Below, in pieces: positions 8,563-45,892 of a stretch of 64,000 bases of DNA. The translations under genes were made by a program, and so were the position numbers. Within the stretch, counting starts at the first letter, position 1. Each line of letters starts with the position of its first letter. Source of the stretch: Natronosalvus halobius (lineage in GTDB: Archaea; Halobacteriota; Halobacteria; Halobacteriales; Natrialbaceae); assembly GCF_024138145.1 (NCBI RefSeq), contig NZ_CP099997.1:1-64000 (forward strand). The letters are read 5' to 3'. Below the pieces are notes generated by a model. The model worked only from the letters and a program-made list of their open reading frames with translations. It did no database searches and was not told the origin of the DNA.

Positions 8563-9018
8563 ATGCTCGAGGCTGGCGACGACGCACCCGACTTTGCACT
8601 GCCGAACCAGCACGGCGAAACGGTTCGCCTGGACGACTTCGAGGGCCAGTACCTGGTCGTGTACTTCTACCCCCGGGCGAACACCGAGGGCTGTACGGTC
8701 GAGGCCTGTGAGTTCCGCGACGCGCGCCCGACGCTCGAGACCGAGAACGCGGCCGTCGTCGGGATCAGCGACGACCCCGTCTCCGACCTCGAGGACTTCG
8801 CGGCGGACTATGACCTCGAGTTCGATCTCCTCTCCGACGAGGACGGCTCCGTGTCGACCGCGTACGATTCCTACGGCGAGAAGCAGATGTTCGGGAATAC
8901 GTTCGACGGCGTCTTCCGGAACACGTTCGTGGTTGGCCCGGACGGCACCATCGAGGCGGTGTTCGAGGGCGTCACCCCCGAGGGACACGCCGACGAAGTG
9001 CTGAACGTTCTCGAGTGA
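8563..9018 (+). CDS. bcp: Peroxiredoxin, BCP type
   Basis: Thiol peroxidase reducing hydroperoxides in the cytoplasm. The thioredoxin-fold start MLEAGDDAPDFALPNQHGE is followed by YFYPRANTEGCTVEACEFRD, which carries the peroxidatic Cys and a second Cys five residues later, the BCP/PrxQ pattern. The 151-aa length is typical. An in-frame ATG at 8509, 12 nt after the GINS stop, would add 18 residues. I prefer 8563 because family members begin a few residues before the APDF motif. It may be read from the priS-GINS transcript. Confidence 0.9.
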   Translation: MLEAGDDAPDFALPNQHGETVRLDDFEGQYLVVYFYPRANTEGCTVEACEFRDARPTLETENAAVVGISDDPVSDLEDFAADYDLEFDLLSDEDGSVSTAYDSYGEKQMFGNTFDGVFRNTFVVGPDGTIEAVFEGVTPEGHADEVLNVLE

Positions 9019-9201
9019 GACGACCGGACGGTTCGGTTCCAGTTCTCGGTACGACAGCGACGATCCAGGCGCGCGTTCTTTTCGAAACGATCAGTATCGC
9101 GACTGGAGATTCCCTCGAGATTGCTCTGAGCAGCACTCGGAGCGCTCCCGCGATACGGTCGACGTCGGCGCTCACCTGGCTGGACGAGGACACTCCTCGA
9201 A

Positions 9202-9254
9202 GTGGACGACAATTCTCACTCGAGTGGACGACAATTCTCACTCGAGTGGACGAG
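9202..9254. repeat. 22-bp tandem repeat, 2.4 copies
   Basis: The unit GTGGACGACAATTCTCACTC plus GA occurs twice perfectly (9202-9223 and 9224-9245), followed by a third partial GTGGACGAG. A related GTGGACGA occurs again near 9267. It is non-coding as far as I can tell. Confidence 0.85.
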
Positions 9255-9342
9255 ATGATTTCCCAGGTGGACGAACGACCAACTCCCACCGCGCGTGACG
9301 AATCGCATCGTTACGTCCTCAACAAATCGAGCGGAATTTACA

Positions 9343-9396
9343 ATGCTACGTCGTACCGTGACCGGAACTGGCATAGTATCATTGGGTGGCGTATAA
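9343..9396 (+). pseudogene. Possible remnant of a Tat signal peptide
   Basis: ATG opens a 17-codon ORF reading MLRRTVTGTGIVSLGGV and then TAA. The twin arginine followed by a Gly/Val/Leu-rich core is how haloarchaeal Tat lipoproteins begin (RRTVLTGTG...), but here it stops before a lipobox. Nothing protein-like follows in frame. I read it as the debris of a lost secreted protein; chance is possible at this length. Confidence 0.3.
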
Positions 9397-9499
9397 GGTC
9401 TACCCGTTCGATATAGGTCGTTTACGTCGTGCGGTTTTTCGGACTTGCACGATCGTACATCGGCGTGTAAAAACTGCCAGCGTCTGTTTCAGCGCCAGG

Positions 9500-9507
9500 T
9501 TTATATA
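9500..9507 (+). promoter_or_regulatory. TATA box of leuA
   Basis: TTTATATA is the strongest TATA box in this stretch. Its centre lies about 29-30 nt before the ATG at 9533 but only about 20 nt before the TTG at 9525. Normal spacing puts the transcript start near 9528-9531, just before the ATG and after the TTG. This matters for how leuA is started. Confidence 0.75.
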
Positions 9508-9524
9508 CTCCCTCGGGCCTGGGG

Positions 9525-10772
9525 TTGGGTACATGTCGACACCAAACGACACCAGCTCTGAGACCCCTCAGGGCGGTCGAGTTCTTCCAGGGCACGTTAG
9601 ATTCTACTGACGAAATCGCAACTGCACGCGTTTTCGACACGACCCTGCGCGATGGCGAACAGTCCCCAGGAACCTCGTTCTCGTACGACGACAAACGCGA
9701 GATCGCACGGGTTCTGGACGAAATGGAAACCCACGTCATCGAAGCAGGCTTCCCCGTCAACTCCGAGGCCGAGTTCGAAGCCGTCAGCGACATCGCGTCG
9801 TCGACGCAGACCACGACCTGTGGACTGGCCCGCGTCGTCGAAGGCGACATCGAAGCGGCGCTGGACTCCGGCGTCGAGATGGTCCACGTCTTCGTCTCCA
9901 CGAGCGACGTGCAGATCGAGGACTCGATGCACTCGAGCCGAGAAGCTGTCGTCGAGCGCGCGATCGACGCCGTCGAGCGCGTCACCGAGGCGGGCGCAAT
10001 TTGCATGTTCTCGCCGATGGACGCCACCCGGACCGACGAGCCGTTCCTGCTCGAGGTCATCGAGGCCGTCACGGAGGCGGGAACCGACTGGATCAACGTC
10101 CCCGACACGTGCGGGGTCGCGACCCCGCGACGCTTCTACGATCTGATCCAGACGGTGACCGACCATACCGACGCGCGCATCGACGTCCACACTCACGACG
10201 ACTTCGGGCTGGCAACGGCGAACGCGCTGGCAGGGATCGAAGCCGGCGCCGACCAGGCGCAGGTCTCGGTCAACTCGATCGGCGAGCGTGCCGGCAACGC
10301 CGCTTACGAAGAGTTCGTGATGGCCGTCGAGTCGGTCTACCAGGCGGACACGGGCATCGACACGACGCGGATCACCGAACTCTCCCAGGTCGTCGCCGAT
10401 CGAAGCGGCGTCCCGGTCCCCTCGAACAAGCCGGTCGTGGGCGCGAACGCGTTCTCCCACGAGAGCGGCATCCACGCCGCCGGCGTCATCGAGAACGCCG
10501 ACACGTTCGAACCCGGCGTCATGACCCCGGAGATGGTCGGCGCCCGGCGCCGACTCGTCCTGGGGAAACACACGGGAACCCACTCGGTTCGCGAACGGCT
10601 GGTCGAGACGGGCTTCGACCCGACCGAGACCGAGGTACGGGCCGTGACCCGTCGCGTCAAGGACTACGGCGCCGAAAAACGTCGCGTCACGGTCTCCGAC
10701 CTCGAGCGATTCGCCGAAGCGGAAGGCGTCGCTCGGCTCCCCGAGCGGGAGCGAGAGGAGGTGCAGGCGTAA
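9525..10772 (+). CDS. leuA: 2-isopropylmalate synthase (LeuA-type), start uncertain
   Basis: Condenses acetyl-CoA with 2-oxoisovalerate, the first committed step to leucine. Catalytic motifs are VFDTTLRDGEQSPG (about residues 35-48) and the metal-binding HTHDDFG (about 222-228). FSHESGIHAAGV and VLGKHTGTHSVRERL are typical of the family's C-terminal half. At about 415 aa it lacks the long regulatory LeuA dimer domain, as archaeal short forms do; a citramalate synthase role cannot be excluded. The only start in frame is TTG 9525, upstream of the expected transcript start, so the true N-terminus is doubtful. First gene of the leu-ilv cluster. Confidence 0.88.
   Translation: MGTCRHQTTPALRPLRAVEFFQGTLDSTDEIATARVFDTTLRDGEQSPGTSFSYDDKREIARVLDEMETHVIEAGFPVNSEAEFEAVSDIASSTQTTTCGLARVVEGDIEAALDSGVEMVHVFVSTSDVQIEDSMHSSREAVVERAIDAVERVTEAGAICMFSPMDATRTDEPFLLEVIEAVTEAGTDWINVPDTCGVATPRRFYDLIQTVTDHTDARIDVHTHDDFGLATANALAGIEAGADQAQVSVNSIGERAGNAAYEEFVMAVESVYQADTGIDTTRITELSQVVADRSGVPVPSNKPVVGANAFSHESGIHAAGVIENADTFEPGVMTPEMVGARRRLVLGKHTGTHSVRERLVETGFDPTETEVRAVTRRVKDYGAEKRRVTVSDLERFAEAEGVARLPEREREEVQA
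9533..9610 (+). other. 25-codon ORF at the leuA 5' end, out of frame
   Basis: This ATG is where a near-leaderless leuA transcript would be expected to begin translation. It reads MSTPNDTSSETPQGG, then RVLPGHVRFY and TGA at 9608. Up to the GG it looks like the N-terminus of a haloarchaeal LeuA. The continuing leuA sequence (VEFFQGTLDS) lies one base further on, so a +1 shift near 9575 would join the two. It may be a sequencing or real frameshift, or a short upstream ORF. Confidence 0.5.
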
Positions 10773-10943
10773 CGATGCACCCTTCGGTTGCTTCGGCCGG
10801 CCAGCGTCGGCTGTCGCGGATCGACGTTCGATCGGATGGATCAGTCAGCCGCTCGAGCGCCGCGCGTGCCGACGTCGCCTCGAGTGGTGGTCGCCCCTCG
10901 TCCGTTGACTCGAACGCGAGCAACGTTTGCCACTCGGGCAACG

Positions 10944-10950
10944 GTTATAT
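10944..10950 (+). promoter_or_regulatory. TATA box of the ilvB leader transcript
   Basis: GTTATAT, about 30 nt before the ATG of the 26-codon leader ORF at 10977. The expected transcript start is near 10972, so the leader ORF is the first thing translated. It gives ilvB-ilvN-ilvC-leuC-leuD a promoter separate from leuA. Confidence 0.7.
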
Positions 10951-10976
10951 GCCTCGAGGCGTCTACCAGTGTAGTA

Positions 10977-11057
10977 ATGACGACCCGCGCTTCCAGATCG
11001 GCTCGCGGTGCCGACAGCGGCGCGGTCGCGACGCTCATTATTGTAGGGGCCGCCTAG
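10977..11057 (+). CDS. Putative ilv leader peptide (26 aa)
   Basis: A 26-codon ORF begins about 5 nt after the predicted transcript start and ends at TAG 11055. It starts MTTRASRSARGADSG and ends AVATLIIVGAA. The Leu-Ile-Ile-Val run uses CTC ATT ATT GTA. ATT and GTA are rare choices here, since Ile is almost always ATC and Val mostly GTC or GTG in the neighbouring genes. A 6-bp hairpin begins at the last base of the GTA codon. In bacteria such peptides sense charged Ile/Val/Leu tRNAs upstream of ilv genes. By position and content this looks like an archaeal analogue; that role is inference. Confidence 0.55.
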   Translation: MTTRASRSARGADSGAVATLIIVGAA

Positions 11058-11062
11058 CCCCT
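11045..11062 (+). promoter_or_regulatory. Hairpin across the leader-peptide stop codon
   Basis: AGGGGC (11045-11050) and GCCCCT (11057-11062) form a perfect 6-bp stem with loop CGCCTA. A ribosome waiting on the preceding Ile or Val codons would cover the 5' arm. A pyrimidine-rich stretch follows (CTCACTTCACCCTCTCTG), not the plain T-run of a standard archaeal terminator. Confidence 0.55.
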
Positions 11063-11146
11063 CACTTCACCCTCTCTGTCCCGACGTTGCACCGATTTCC
11101 TAGCGACCAGCGACGCAGCACCCACAGTCCCCAGCGACCCCGAACG

Positions 11147-11203
11147 ATGACACGACAGCACACACGAAATCGCCGCCATCCGGCGGCAGGAGGGTATCGA
11201 TGA
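11147..11203 (+). CDS. 18-codon mini-ORF coupled to ilvB
   Basis: ATG 11147 reads [18 protein letters not shown] and its TGA overlaps the ilvB ATG (ATGA at 11200-11203). A ribosome finishing it would end exactly on the ilvB start, beside the AGGAGG Shine-Dalgarno. It resembles in style the mini-ORF joining ilvB to ilvN, which also begins MTR and is Arg/Thr-rich. Being so short it could be chance; the exact overlap is the support. Confidence 0.4.
11172..11193 (+). promoter_or_regulatory. Stem-loop abutting the ilvB Shine-Dalgarno
   Basis: GCCGCC (11172-11177) pairs with GGCGGC (11182-11187) across the 4-base loop ATCC. It is followed without a gap by AGGAGG (11188-11193), which sits 6 nt before the ilvB ATG. 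A folded stem next to the ribosome site could control access. Strong Shine-Dalgarno sites are not the rule for haloarchaeal first genes, so this one stands out. Confidence 0.6.
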
Positions 11204-13038
11204 GCGAACGCGCGACACCGGTGACACCGCGGACCGAAGCGGACTCCAGCGCGGCGGAAACTGAGCGCGAACGCGAACGCGAGCGCAACCCCGAAGCCGC
11301 CGCCGACGTCTCGACCGAACCGAGTTCGAACACCGACGCATCGACAAAGCCGGTCACGACGGGCGCCGAATCCGTCATCCGCGCGCTCGAGACCGCGGGC
11401 GCCGAGTACGTCTTCGGCGTCCAGGGCGGGGCGATCATGCCCGTCTACGACGCACTCTACGACTCCGAGATCCGCCACGTGACGATGGCTCACGAGCAGG
11501 GCGCCTCCCACGCCGCCGACGCCTACGGCATCGTCTCGGGCGATCCGGGCGTCTGCTTCGCGACCTCCGGACCCGGCGCGACGAACCTGGTGACGGGCAT
11601 CGCCGACGCCGACATGGACTCGGATCCGATGATCGCGCTGACGGGCCAGGTGCCGACCAGGATGGTCGGCAACGACGCCTTCCAGGAGACCGATACCACG
11701 GGCGTCACGAAACCGATCACGAAGGCCAACACGTTCTCGAGCGACCCCGATCGCGTCGGCGACGACGTCGGCGAGGCATTCGCGCTCGCGGGCGCGGGCC
11801 GACCCGGCCCGACGCTAGTCGATCTGCCGAAGGACGTGACCCTGGGCGACACCTCGACCGAGCCGGGCCAGCCACGGACGCCGGACACGTACGAGGTGCA
11901 AGAGCACGCCGACCCCGAGACGGTCCGACTTGCCGCGCGGCGCATCGAGCAGTCCACGAAGCCGGTCTTGCTGCTGGGCGGCGGCGTCATCAAGGGCAGC
12001 GCCACCGAGGCCGTGCGGGCGTTCGCGGTCGAACACGAGATTCCGGTCGTGACGACGATGCCCGGCCTCGGCGCGTTCCCCGAGGATCACGAGCTCGCGA
12101 TGGAGATGGCCGGGATGCACGGGACGGGGTACGCCAACATGGCGATCACCCATTGCGACACCTTGATCGGCGTCGGCACCCGGTTCGACGACCGGCTGAC
12201 CGGCGGCATCGAGCACTTCGCGCCCGACGCGGAGGTCATTCACGTCGACATCGATCCAGCCGAGATCAGCAAGAACATCCACGCGGAGTACCCGCTCGTC
12301 GGCGACGCGGAAACGGTGATCGAGCAGTTGGCCGACGAGGTCACGGAATCTCCGCGAGCCACCAAGTGGCGCGCCCAGTGCCAGCAGTGGAAGTCGGAAT
12401 ACTCGATGGCCTACCGGACGCCCGAGGACGAACCGGTCCAGCCGCCGTTCGTCGTCGAAGCGCTCGACGAGGCCACGAGCGACCGGGCGATCGTGACCAC
12501 GGGCGTCGGGCAACACCAGATGTGGGCTTGCCAGTACTGGACGTTCACCGAACCCCGGACCTGGGTCTCGAGCCACGGGCTCGGGACGATGGGCTACGGC
12601 CTACCCGCGGCCGTCGGTGCGAGACTCGCCGCCGAGGACGACCAGGAGGTCGTCTGCTTCGAGGGCGACGGGTCGTTCCTGATGACGATCCAGGAACTGG
12701 CCGTGGCCGTCCGTGAGAACCTGAACATCACCGTCGTCGTGCTCAACAACGAGTACATCGGCATGGTTCGCCAGTGGCAGGACGCCTTCTTCGAGGGTCG
12801 CCACGCCGCCTCGGAGTACAACTGGTGTCCCGAGTTCGACACCCTGGCGGAGGCTTTCGGCGCGAAAGGATTCCGCATCGACGACTACGACGAGGTCGCC
12901 GACACGGTCGAGGCCGCGCTGGCCTACGACGGCCCCTCGGTGATCGACGCCCACATCGACCCACGGGCGAACGTTTACCCGATGGTGCCGAGCGGCGGCG
13001 ACAACGGACGGTTCGCGCTGTCGGAGGACCAGCTATGA
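11200..13038 (+). CDS. ilvB: Acetolactate synthase large (catalytic) subunit
   Basis: ThDP- and FAD-dependent enzyme making acetolactate or acetohydroxybutyrate for valine, leucine and isoleucine. After a variable, charged N-terminal 45 residues come the ThDP glutamate region ([18 protein letters not shown]), [18 protein letters not shown], and the C-terminal ThDP/Mg motif [20 protein letters not shown]. The 612-aa length fits with the N-terminal extension. It is translated from an AGGAGG site 6 nt upstream, in a leader that carries a peptide ORF and hairpins. The stop overlaps a mini-ORF leading to ilvN. Confidence 0.95.
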
Positions 13039-13130
13039 CCAGGACGCGAACGCGACCAGCTACGGCCGGGACGCGAACGCGATTCGACGACGCGCGACGC
13101 TCGAGGCCGGCCTCGAGGTGGTCCGCGTGA
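13035..13130 (+). CDS. 31-codon mini-ORF bridging ilvB and ilvN
   Basis: Its ATG overlaps the ilvB stop (ATGA at 13035-13038) and its TGA overlaps the ilvN GTG start (GTGA at 13127-13130), so it exactly fills the gap between the two subunits of acetolactate synthase. It begins [19 protein letters not shown]; the DNA contains a GGACGCGAACGCGA direct repeat. The composition (Arg/Thr/Ser) is unlike the acidic proteome, so I think its value is in carrying ribosomes from ilvB to ilvN rather than in the peptide. Confidence 0.4.
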   Translation: MTRTRTRPATAGTRTRFDDARRSRPASRWSA

Positions 13131-13783
13131 CTGACCGACGCGGACTCGAGGGCCCCGCTCCCGGCGAACGGCCGGCCCCGGCGGGCAAGCGCAACGAACT
13201 CGGCATCCGGGTCGATCCGGAAGTCGAGGCTGCGCGCCCGCCGCGACGGACCGTCATCTCGGCGCTCGTCGAACACGAACCCGGCGTGCTCTCGGACGTC
13301 TCGGGGCTGTTTTCGAGGCGACAGTTCAACATCGAGAGCCTCACCGTCGGCCCCACGGAGGACGAGGCCCACGCACGCATGACGATCGTCGTCGAGGAGC
13401 CCGATCCCGGCATCGAACAGGCGAAAAAACAGCTCCGGAAGCTGATTCCGGTGATCGCGGTTCGCGAACTCGAGCCCGACGCGATGCGTCGCGAACTGGC
13501 GCTCGTGAAGGTGAACGCGACGCGACCGGACCGGGTCGCCGCCGTCGCGGAGATGTACGGCGGGAAGACCGTCGACGCCAGCCCGGAGACGGCGACGATC
13601 GAGATCACCGGTTCGCGCCAGAAGATCGACGCGGCCATCGACTCGTTCAGCCAGTTTGGCATCCGCGAGATTTCCCGCACGGGAACGACCGCGATGGCTC
13701 GCGGGACCGACGATACGGCCGCCGAGCAGACGAAAGCACAGCCAGCCGACCAGCGACACACCGTTCCAGCAGACGATGACTGA
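13127..13783 (+). CDS. ilvN: Acetolactate synthase small (regulatory) subunit
   Basis: Regulatory subunit that confers branched-chain amino acid feedback control on IlvB. An ACT domain is clear at about residues 40-110 ([20 protein letters not shown], then [20 protein letters not shown]), followed by the C-terminal half with [20 protein letters not shown] and a Ser/Thr/Gln-rich tail. 218 aa. GTG 13127 is used because it overlaps the bridging mini-ORF stop and gives the typical TDRRGLEGP start; another GTG lies three codons upstream. Confidence 0.93.
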
Positions 13784-14867
13784 CGACACTCACACTCACA
13801 CCGACGCAGACGCAGACGCAGATGCAGACGACACGTTTACGACGAACATCTACTACGGCGAGGACGCCGATTCCAGCTCCCTCGAGGATAAGACAGTAGC
13901 CGTCCTCGGCTACGGCAGCCAGGGCCACGCCCACGCACTGAACCTGCACGACAGCGGGTTCGACGTCGTGGTCGGCCTCCGCGAGGATTCGAGTTCCTGG
14001 GCGCAAGCCGAGGACGACGGCCTGCGGGTGACGACGCCCGACGACGCCACCGCGGAAGCCGACGTGATCATGTTCCTCGTCCCCGACACTATCCAGCCCG
14101 CGGTCTTCGAAGCCGTCGAGGACGGCCTCGAGGAGGGGAACACGGTCATGTTCGCCCACGGGTTCAACATTCACTACAATCAGATTCAGCCACCCGAGTA
14201 CGTGGACGTCACGATGGCCGCCCCGAAGGGCCCGGGTCACATCGTGCGCCGCGACTACGAGAACGGTGGCGGCACGCCGGCGCTGATCGCGGTCTACCAG
14301 GACTACACAGGCGACGCCAAGGAGGAGGCCCTGGCCTACGCCCAGGGCATCGGCGCCACCCGCGCGGGCGTCGTCGAGACGACGTTCCGCGAGGAGGTCG
14401 AGTCGGACCTCTTCGGCGAGCAGGCCGTCCTCTGTGGCGGCGTTACCTCGCTGGTCAAACACGGCTTCGAGACACTGATCGACGCGGGTTACGCCCCCGA
14501 GATGGCCTACTTCGAGTGCCTGAACGAACTCAAACTGATCGTCGACCTGATGTACGAAGACGGGATCGGCGGCATGTGGTACTCCGTGAGCGACACGGCG
14601 GAGTACGGCGGCCTGACCCGCGGCGACCGCATCGTCGACGACTCCGTGCGCGAGAACATGGAGGAAGTACTCGAGGAGGTTCAAAGCGGTGCGTTCGCCC
14701 GCGAGTGGATCAACGAGAACCAGGCCGGACGCCCCTCCTACACCCAGTTGAAGCGCCACGACGAGGAACACGAGATCGAATCGATCGGCGCGCCCCTGCG
14801 CGACCTCTTCGAGTGGGAGGACGACTCGAGCGAGAACGAACCGGCGGAGGTGCCGGCGGACGACTGA
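13776..14867 (+). CDS. ilvC: Ketol-acid reductoisomerase
   Basis: NADPH/Mg enzyme converting acetolactate to dihydroxyisovalerate. The N-terminal Rossmann loop [20 protein letters not shown] (about residues 33-52) and C-terminal knotted-domain motifs ([35 protein letters not shown]) are plain. It starts inside ilvN (8-nt overlap). The N-terminus carries a short His-Thr / Asp-Ala dipeptide run ([14 protein letters not shown]) encoded by a GCAGAC repeat, likely from slippage. The length of 363 aa is normal for class I with this extension. Confidence 0.95.
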
Positions 14868-45810: not shown

Positions 45811-45892
45811 GGTGAGGTGGCAGAGCGGCCCAACGCGCCTGCCTTGAAAGCAGGTGGCGCAAGCCTCATGGGTTCAAATCCCATCCTCACCG
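45811..45892 (+). tRNA. tRNA-Ser (anticodon TGA)
   Basis: An 82-nt class II tRNA. Acceptor arm GGTGAGG/CCTCACC with discriminator G. Anticodon arm CCTGC-CTTGAAA-GCAGG with TGA at 45845-45847. Long variable arm GGC-GCAA-GCC as expected for serine. T arm ATGGG-TTCAAAT-CCCAT. CCA is not encoded. A partial, decayed copy of its 3' end lies 115 bp further on. Confidence 0.95.

Follow-up and report, generated by a model that had tools for sequence, protein, structure and literature searches.

A conserved leader upstream of the ilvB operon in haloarchaea with features of a ribosome-read attenuator

The ilvB locus of Natronosalvus halobius and its leader

This study deals with the leader of ilvB, the gene for the large subunit of acetolactate synthase, in the haloarchaeon Natronosalvus halobius. 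The sequence analysed, called the window throughout, comprises the first 64,000 nucleotides (nt) of contig NZ_CP099997.1 (assembly GCF_024138145.1). The ilvB gene occupies positions 11200-13038 of the forward strand, on which all features of the leader described below also lie, and it was identified with model TIGR00118 (696 bits, above cut-off). It is followed by ilvN, ilvC, leuC and leuD, with all four models scoring above cut-off, and is preceded by a leuA-like gene that the models for 2-isopropylmalate synthase match below their cut-offs.

Inspection of the region 5′ of ilvB revealed a TATA-like promoter element (GTTATATG, 10944-10951), followed by a 26-codon upstream open reading frame (uORF1, 10977-11057) with its ATG at 10977 and a TAG stop at 11055-11057, which would encode the leader peptide MTTRASRSARGADSGAVATLIIVGAA. 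The end of uORF1 contains the codons CTC ATT ATT GTA for Leu-Ile-Ile-Val (11034-11045), and the last base of GTA opens a perfect hairpin (hairpin 1) in which AGGGGC (11045-11050) and GCCCCT (11057-11062) enclose the loop CGCCTA (11051-11056), so that the stop codon of uORF1 is placed at the loop. A pyrimidine-rich tract devoid of G extends from the 3′ arm of this hairpin (11058-11077), the first G being found at 11078. Further downstream, a second stem (GCCGCC, 11172-11177; GGCGGC, 11182-11187) directly adjoins the ilvB Shine-Dalgarno (SD) sequence AGGAGG (11188-11193). An earlier note, made from the sequence of the window alone, had described a TATA box at 10944, a 26-codon ORF shortly after the expected transcript start, its Leu-Ile-Ile-Val end, a 6-bp hairpin running from the last base of GTA over the stop codon and a second stem touching the SD sequence of ilvB, and had read them as an attenuator-like leader; each of these elements was recovered in our analysis.

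The comparison of leaders added three elements to that description, namely a second upstream ORF, a candidate long-range helix named P0 and a leader of the same type before valS. In the window, the second upstream ORF (uORF2, 11147-11203) overlaps the start of ilvB in an ATGA arrangement, encodes no Ile, Leu or Val, and contains the second stem. The candidate strands of P0 are GGTCGC (11024-11029), within uORF1, and GCGACC (11134-11139), which lies 7 nt 5′ of the uORF2 ATG; they amount to only 6 bp in this genome.

Searches with Rfam covariance models gave no match in positions 9000-14000 of the window at E values up to 1, and no match at gathering score in 20 related ilvB loci. An identity with a known Rfam cis-regulatory RNA, such as a riboswitch or a T-box, was consequently rejected. 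The only gathering-score match in the whole window corresponds to a tRNA (45811-45892).

Conservation of uORF1, its regulatory codons and hairpin 1

The earlier note had made its reading depend on the short ORF and its codon run being kept in related organisms. Comparison of the regions upstream of ilvB indicated that most of the class retains the short ORF, the Ile-Val codons, the hairpin and the stop codon, a result that supports the attenuator-like reading at the level of anatomy. In the genus itself, an ORF ending in [LF]IIVGAA* was found in 8 of 8 genomes. In the family, ilvB was located in 99 of 101 genomes, and the core of the leader (ATT or ATC followed by GTA at a hairpin holding the stop) was present upstream of ilvB in all 57 genomes read, 54 of them with an in-frame ATG. 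At the level of the class, the exact pattern TTGTAGGGGC-N6-GCCCC matched 130 of 292 genomes, nearly always once, versus 5 matches for a reversed control pattern, and the 30 loci fetched from this search were all located upstream of ilvB. Among 42 genomes of other genera chosen for lacking the exact pattern, 37 carry a variant (e.g. LIIVGV*, RIVGV*, VLGIVGV* or IVGPA*), one has a degraded form (locus L132) and four are without a leader (L149, L151, L152 and L153). A scan of named genomes gave a concordant picture, as the leader is carried by 7/7 haloarchaeal records among the 80 named loci listed as matches, corresponding to Haladaptatus halobius, Halovivax sp., Natronolimnohabitans innermongolicus, Halorubrum salsamenti, Halolamina rubra, Natrialba asiatica and a metagenome-assembled genome of the Halobacteriales. 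Finally, when 246 genomes of the phylum were searched with a covariance model under stricter filters, there were matches in 36, which are all members of the order; seven of the non-matching genomes listed also belong to the order, and 190 non-matching genomes were not listed.

In total, 130 ilvB loci were read and the core was recognised in 125, of which 30 had been chosen by motif. The script pattern for the core was AT[TCA]GTA[GC]GGG; variants in L129, L136, L142 and L150 were recognised by eye and included, and the five loci with a degraded leader or none named above were left out. Removal of redundancy resulted in 94 leaders, and statistics on 93 or fewer omit L136, whose ilvB start is misassigned. 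Tests by group compared 40 leaders of the family with 53 others, the family members L154 and L155 being counted among the others. Motif-selected loci (L081-L110 for ilvB and L200-L229 for the valS leaders described below) provide no evidence of frequency.

The analysis of these leaders argues for translation of uORF1 from a start at or close to the beginning of the transcript. When a promoter was defined as a TATA-like element with an ATG 22-48 nt downstream, 76 of 93 leaders showed such a pair, and in 75 of these 76 the ATG and the Ile-Val codons share one reading frame despite the varying length of the ORF. The distance between both elements was 31-33 nt in 69/76 leaders, a spacing that is the one predicted for a leaderless or nearly leaderless uORF1 start. 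TATA-like hexamers downstream of uORF1 were detected, using a strict list, in 1 of 93 leaders, and this near absence, together with the narrow spacing, fits a transcript start just before uORF1. The stop codon of uORF1 is also strongly constrained: in 89 of 94 leaders it is found at codon index 4 or 5 past the Ile codon, within the hairpin loop or at its edge, and it may be spelled TAG, TAA or TGA. In the other five leaders the frame continues beyond the hairpin, and three loci of one genus (L079, L154 and L155) have an open uORF1 frame devoid of an ATG.

The codons at the end of uORF1 are those expected of an attenuator: triplets for the amino acids made by the pathway are clustered there, and the regulatory ones among them are rarely used in bulk genes. 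The codon preceding GTA is ATT in 73, ATC in 19, TTC in one and CTC in one of the 94 leaders. The rarity of ATT and GTA, pointed out in the earlier note for the window, extends to the whole set: in the IlvB coding sequences of the same loci, GTA accounts for 0.4% of 2853 Val codons and ATT for 6.5% of 1527 Ile codons. Ile, Leu and Val make up 53% of the nine codons up to and including GTA (codons −8 to 0), in comparison with 12.6% in codons −18 to −9. The use of rare codons at regulatory positions has been treated theoretically (accessible text of PMC1183508).

Hairpin 1 retains its pairing while its loop varies from about 3 to 8 nt, and in L129 both arms are changed (GGGCC/GGCCC). Its fold in the window has an energy of −11.9 kcal/mol (z −2.4 versus dinucleotide shuffles), which is modest, and the stretch 10977-11075 as a whole folds no better than shuffled sequence (z −0.7). 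Taken by themselves these energies would be compatible with a short ORF and a hairpin that came together by chance and have no function; conservation across the class and the statistics of the reading frame refute such an origin, to which we assign practically no probability. On the evidence of sequence comparison, then, the ilvB leader is real and widely conserved, and uORF1 very probably acts as a regulatory leader peptide.

A different explanation would be that GTAGGGG...CCCCTAC is a DNA operator, or a site in the RNA, bound by a regulatory protein, with the reading frame being incidental. The near letter-for-letter conservation of GTAGGG, and the fact that the matching sequence is a dyad, would suit such a site. 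In the opposite direction, loop length varies as it would not in a fixed operator, 75 of 76 leaders preserve the frame, the stop at the loop is maintained in three spellings, the enrichment in Ile, Leu and Val codons reaches upstream of the site, and before valS the element is found again with an identical frame. The variable loop and the conserved frame led us to reject a DNA operator with fixed spacing of half-sites, and the protein-binding explanation in general appears very unlikely; a protein that binds the RNA might act in concert with translation.

uORF2, helix P0 and the proposed mechanism

An ORF whose stop overlaps the ilvB start codon (ATGA or GTGA) was identified in 78 of 94 leaders, in comparison with 16% for shuffled gaps; L136, with its misassigned start, is one of the 16 leaders in which this ORF was not found. 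The overlapping frame contains 89 of the 100 ATGs present in the gaps when that leader is omitted, and 94 of 114 when it is included. The overlap is kept throughout a range of uORF2 lengths of 3 to 45 codons. With regard to composition, the 72 uORF2s of at least 8 codons contain 31 Ile, Leu or Val among 1455 residues (2.1%), and 49 of them contain none; when this DNA is read in its two remaining frames, the values are 11.5% and 7.8%. The p values for this depletion in the proper frame (6e-25 and 2e-12) were calculated from rounded fractions, with residues from related leaders treated as independent. No depletion was observed for Met plus Phe (1.2% vs 0.4% and 0.9%). Differences between uORF2s are distributed over codon positions as 32:14:22, from 12 pairs only. 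The overlap and the composition of uORF2 are what one expects of an ORF that has to be translatable under branched-chain amino acid shortage and that would feed ilvB by termination-reinitiation. Of 14 overlapping gene pairs tested, nine from Haloferax volcanii and five from Escherichia coli, 13 showed strict coupling (accessible text of PMC6728339). As in the coupled ATGA pairs of that paper, the stop of uORF2 overlaps the start of ilvB, often with an SD sequence before ilvB; unlike in the pairs described there, the upstream partner is an ORF of 3-45 codons with no conserved product.

The position of uORF2 might also suggest reinitiation of the GCN4 type, in which small ribosomal subunits leaving uORF1 would travel about 70 nt to uORF2 and reinitiate again at ilvB, the signal setting how many subunits are retained. 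In agreement with this, uORF2 starts at the first ATG in 78 of the 85 leaders that have any ATG in the gap, its distance to the uORF1 stop is 68-80 nt in 47 of 78, and an SD-like motif precedes it in just 1 of 78 leaders, vs 66 of 93 for ilvB. Stalling in uORF1 would, however, lower initiation downstream unless another step inverted the sign, and we know of no established case of GCN4-like scanning in archaea. Such a mechanism is therefore considered improbable.

The second stem gave a result that depends on the group of organisms. In the window it has by itself a z of −1.25. Within the family, 26 of 40 leaders have a perfect stem of at least 5 bp in the last 39 nt ahead of the ilvB start, in comparison with 5.7 expected by shuffling, and in 21 of those 26 the stem lies directly 5′ of the SD sequence, built from many unrelated sequences; outside the family there was no excess (3/53 vs 4.1 expected). 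The second stem proposed in the earlier note is thus upheld for the family of the window and not beyond it. Since this stem lies inside uORF2, translation of uORF2 would be expected to open it. We also considered that the freed 3′ arm of hairpin 1 could mask the SD sequence of ilvB, and rejected this possibility because no conserved partner was found and the accessibility of the start was unchanged.

Helix P0 would pair the part of uORF1 immediately 5′ of the regulatory codons with the sequence preceding uORF2. We compared this part (positions −28 to −4) with the nucleotides just ahead of the uORF2 ATG or, if there was no uORF2, of the ilvB ATG. Pairings of at least 7 bp occurred in 25 of 93 leaders vs 10.6 when partners were permuted within the two groups (0/1000 permutations), and pairings of at least 9 bp in 9 of 93 vs 1.3 (0/1000), whereas a control stretch of uORF1 (−60 to −36) gave no clear excess (9 vs 7.2; 273/1000). 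The 3′ strand of P0 ends 0-29 nt 5′ of the ATG. Examples are TGCTGTCGGTT/AACCGACAGCA in L120, GTCGAGCGCG/CGCGCTCGAC in L114, GGTCGCTGCG/CGCAGCGACC in L042 and GTCGTACGGA/TCCGTACGAC in L076. The sequence of the helix differs across genera, which argues against kinship among leaders as the whole cause of the excess.

Altogether, we propose that the leader is probably a ribosome-read attenuator that tunes the ilvB operon of haloarchaea to the charging of Val and Ile, and probably Leu, tRNAs. Considered separately, the charging of these tRNAs is likely to be the signal, and we give even chances to translation as the main level of output; a mainly transcriptional output is somewhat doubtful. When Val and Ile are plentiful, the ribosome would run through uORF1 and leave at the loop stop, after which hairpin 1 and P0 would form, and P0 would close the start of uORF2, which otherwise would feed ilvB by termination-reinitiation; hairpin 1 and the pyrimidine tract may in addition end or cut the transcript. 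When Val and Ile are short, the ribosome would stall on the ATT or GTA codons. With an Ile or Val codon in its A site, a stalled ribosome would cover roughly 15 nt on each side, so that hairpin 1 would lose access to its 5′ arm and P0 to its 5′ strand, whereas a ribosome that had reached the stop or had departed would leave the latter strand free. The start of uORF2 would then stay open, uORF2 could be translated with almost no need for Ile, Leu or Val, and ilvB would be made. The outcome would be induction on starvation.

The same hairpin could instead operate in a purely transcriptional manner, with hairpin 1 and the C/U tract forming a terminator, either of the hairpin type or dependent on aCPSF1/FttA, that is blocked by the stalled ribosome, and with uORF2 serving only for coupling. 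The computed probability of hairpin 1 is high, with an average of 0.95 in 88 leaders, and the sequence behind it (93 leaders) is distinctive, since G represents 3-5% of the first 15 nt and T rises from 21-29% in the first 10 nt to 41% at positions +10 to +14; this G-poor tract is a possible signal for termination or cleavage. In H. volcanii, 503 transcript 3′ ends have a hairpin no more than 10 nt upstream, and one tested hairpin ended 59% of transcripts (accessible text of PMC7237163), which implies that the output of the leader could equally, or also, be transcriptional. On the other hand, the tract consists of C, A and U with almost no G, and no U-run directly behind hairpin 1 was found in the 93 leaders, nor was a conserved competing partner for either arm of the hairpin detected in the leaders compared; the classical bacterial terminator/antiterminator design therefore does not describe this leader. 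The position of the stop codon at the loop is also unfavourable to a terminator, and a purely transcriptional mechanism would leave unexplained both P0 and the scarcity of Ile, Leu and Val in uORF2. For these reasons we regard it as unlikely.

Several observations weigh against the attenuator with translational output as proposed above. Regarding uORF1, 17 of 93 leaders do not show the TATA-ATG pair under the promoter rule. Upstream of the motif, uORF1 shows no bias of differences towards third codon positions (100:85:96 in 31 pairs), from which it follows that the peptide is not conserved in that part and that only its end seems to matter. That GTAGGG is invariant is for the most part a consequence of the pattern from which the leader set was made. 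With respect to hairpin 1, a ribosome terminating at the loop stop would also cover the hairpin, which is awkward for a plain terminator. As for P0, the helix is undetectable in most leaders and reaches only 6 bp in the window, its duplex energy is weak (z −1.4 and −1.8 with wider windows; 179 and 81 of 2000 permutations as low), and kinship among leaders can inflate the permutation result. The starts of uORF2 and ilvB were computed to be equally accessible with and without masking of the 5′ arm of hairpin 1. Finally, the valS leaders yielded no P0 signal (1 of 30 with at least 7 bp, and a mean for own partners not above that for all partners), a result that also favours a transcriptional output, and their uORF2s do contain Val, so that codon avoidance is not general.

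Related leaders before other genes and comparison with known systems

Searches with the covariance model and with patterns revealed second sites in several genomes. In the nine that were fetched the downstream gene looks like valS. For the loci treated in this section, NCBIfam models named the downstream genes tested as valS (L242 and L243), ileS, pheS and trpS. The pattern TTYGTAGGGGC-N4-TAGCCCC matched 51 of 292 genomes of the class, belonging to two families. Thirty of these loci were read, and each of them combines a leader that ends in [VIA]FVGA[x]* and an overlapping uORF2 with a valS signature further downstream. GTA is the codon common to the ilvB and valS leaders. In the genome of the window, the leader of valS (L243) ends in IVVGAP* and its stem looks broken. 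Eight genomes were searched for class I synthetases, and among them a valS leader was found in neither G132 nor G117, G013 giving no clear answer.

Some additional observations were made on these and other synthetase genes. In the valS leaders (L200-L229 and L191-L199), the end ..FVGA* lies in a GTAGGGGC/GCCCC hairpin in both families, and the gap contains a strongly conserved stretch around TTTCGACGGATGTATTGTCGCCGACCAG. A different type of valS leader, with tandem Val codons, was observed in G103 (MSVGIAVVRV*, L238) and in G128 (MSATRSVVRGL*, L240); in L240 a hairpin holds the stop. Before ileS of G132 (L232), a leader with ATT ATT ends in PIIAGQ*, its stop codon lies in the loop of an 8-bp hairpin, and the likely GTG start of ileS is overlapped by a second uORF. 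Phe-rich ORFs with the motif GF[GD]FF[F] precede pheS in 6 of 10 genomes (L257, from the genome of the window, L252, L254, L255, L256 and L259), and five of them end shortly after the motif; these short ORFs are likely to encode phenylalanine leader peptides. Among nine genomes, ORFs with WRW[RW] were found before three trpS genes of one type (L280, from the genome of the window, L277 and L270), with the Trp codons closer to the N-terminus than to the stop, and they are possible tryptophan leader peptides. A further group of conserved uORFs before trpS-like genes (MVFAL..WLSV..RLTP-like, five loci) was dropped, as a continuing coding frame precedes them and they apparently correspond to the end of the upstream gene, which we take to be EndA.

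A further observation concerns the start of leuA. Downstream of the leuA TATA box, the leuA frame contains no ATG in any of the 21 genomes read (window positions 9500-9660; L362-L381 in the others). In the window, the ATG at 9533, 33 nt after the TATA box, opens the ORF MSTPNDTSSETPQGGRVLPGHVRFY* one frame back. Such an ORF, of 20-27 codons and with RVL[PR] near its end, was found one base back in 21/21 genomes and overlaps the conserved leuA residues [VI]EFF (GFF in L373) at GTTCTTC. This arrangement resembles a programmed +1 frameshift, conserved among these genomes and located at the Leu codon CTT (GTT CTT C), which would join both frames and is possibly leucine-sensitive.

From the anatomy of these loci, we suggest, rather tentatively and at slightly less than even chances, that haloarchaea have an attenuation system of their own, present before ilvB and valS and before one or a few ileS, pheS and trpS genes. 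It would consist of a leaderless peptide with cognate codons at its end, a hairpin holding the stop codon and an overlapping second uORF, poor in the sensed amino acids at ilvB, that would pass ribosomes on to the main gene, and stalling would free the start of uORF2 rather than prevent a terminator from forming.

Ribosome-mediated attenuators of ilv genes are well known in bacteria, as in the ivbL and ilvGMEDA leaders of E. coli. The ilvB leader shares with these systems a short ORF with Ile, Val and Leu codons just ahead of a biosynthetic gene, the rarity of the regulatory codons and a hairpin where the ORF ends. It differs from them in belonging to an archaeon, in its predicted leaderless start, in the stop at the loop, in having no U-run and no antiterminator partner that could be found, in its second overlapping uORF and in the presence of the element also before valS. 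In Corynebacterium, the ilvBNC attenuator is made up of three hairpins (accessible text of PMC11857589). Translational attenuators of the ermC type are described in the available part of the uORF4u paper (PMC10219788), which also states in general terms that uORFs regulate in archaea too. As in the ermC type, a ribosome stalled on the leader would make the start of the following ORF accessible, here through helix P0; unlike in that type, the signal would be amino acid supply instead of a drug, the opened start would be that of a coupling uORF instead of the main gene, and P0 is clear only in a subset of leaders.

Among archaea, Rfam lists the leuA-Halobacteria RNA motif, a candidate for cis-regulation of a gene of branched-chain amino acid metabolism in Halobacteria. 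The ilvB leader is similar to it in being a cis-regulatory candidate at a branched-chain gene and differs in giving no Rfam match. Mapping of transcript starts in H. volcanii identified uORFs before pheS (26 aa, amino acids) and before the tryptophan--tRNA ligase gene HVO_A0127 (23 aa); ilvB is not among the 16 uORF genes tabulated in the accessible text (PMC4983044). Those uORFs share with the present ones their small size and their location in the transcript leaders of amino-acid-related genes. In the available part of that paper, they are treated as small proteins in long 5′ untranslated regions, with neither a codon analysis nor a regulatory proposal, unlike in the interpretation put forward here. 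An identity of the pheS leader in L256 with the published H. volcanii uORF is not claimed (2822 Da vs 2772 Da). The earlier note knew of no leader-peptide attenuator described for ilv in archaea; the open-access literature searched contained none, nor any archaeal leader-peptide attenuator for another amino acid.

Leader-peptide attenuation is a textbook mechanism of bacteria, and it requires ribosomes that follow RNA polymerase or that gate the next start codon, whereas the promoters and the polymerase of archaea resemble those of eukaryotes. If the proposed role of the ilvB leader is correct, leader-peptide attenuation would have evolved in archaea as well, with an anatomy kept across the class and also used before valS. 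Transcription-translation coupling and control by leaderless initiation would then become testable in Haloferax with ordinary reporters, and attenuation of this kind may explain some of the short ORFs catalogued as small proteins in the 5′ leaders of haloarchaeal transcripts.

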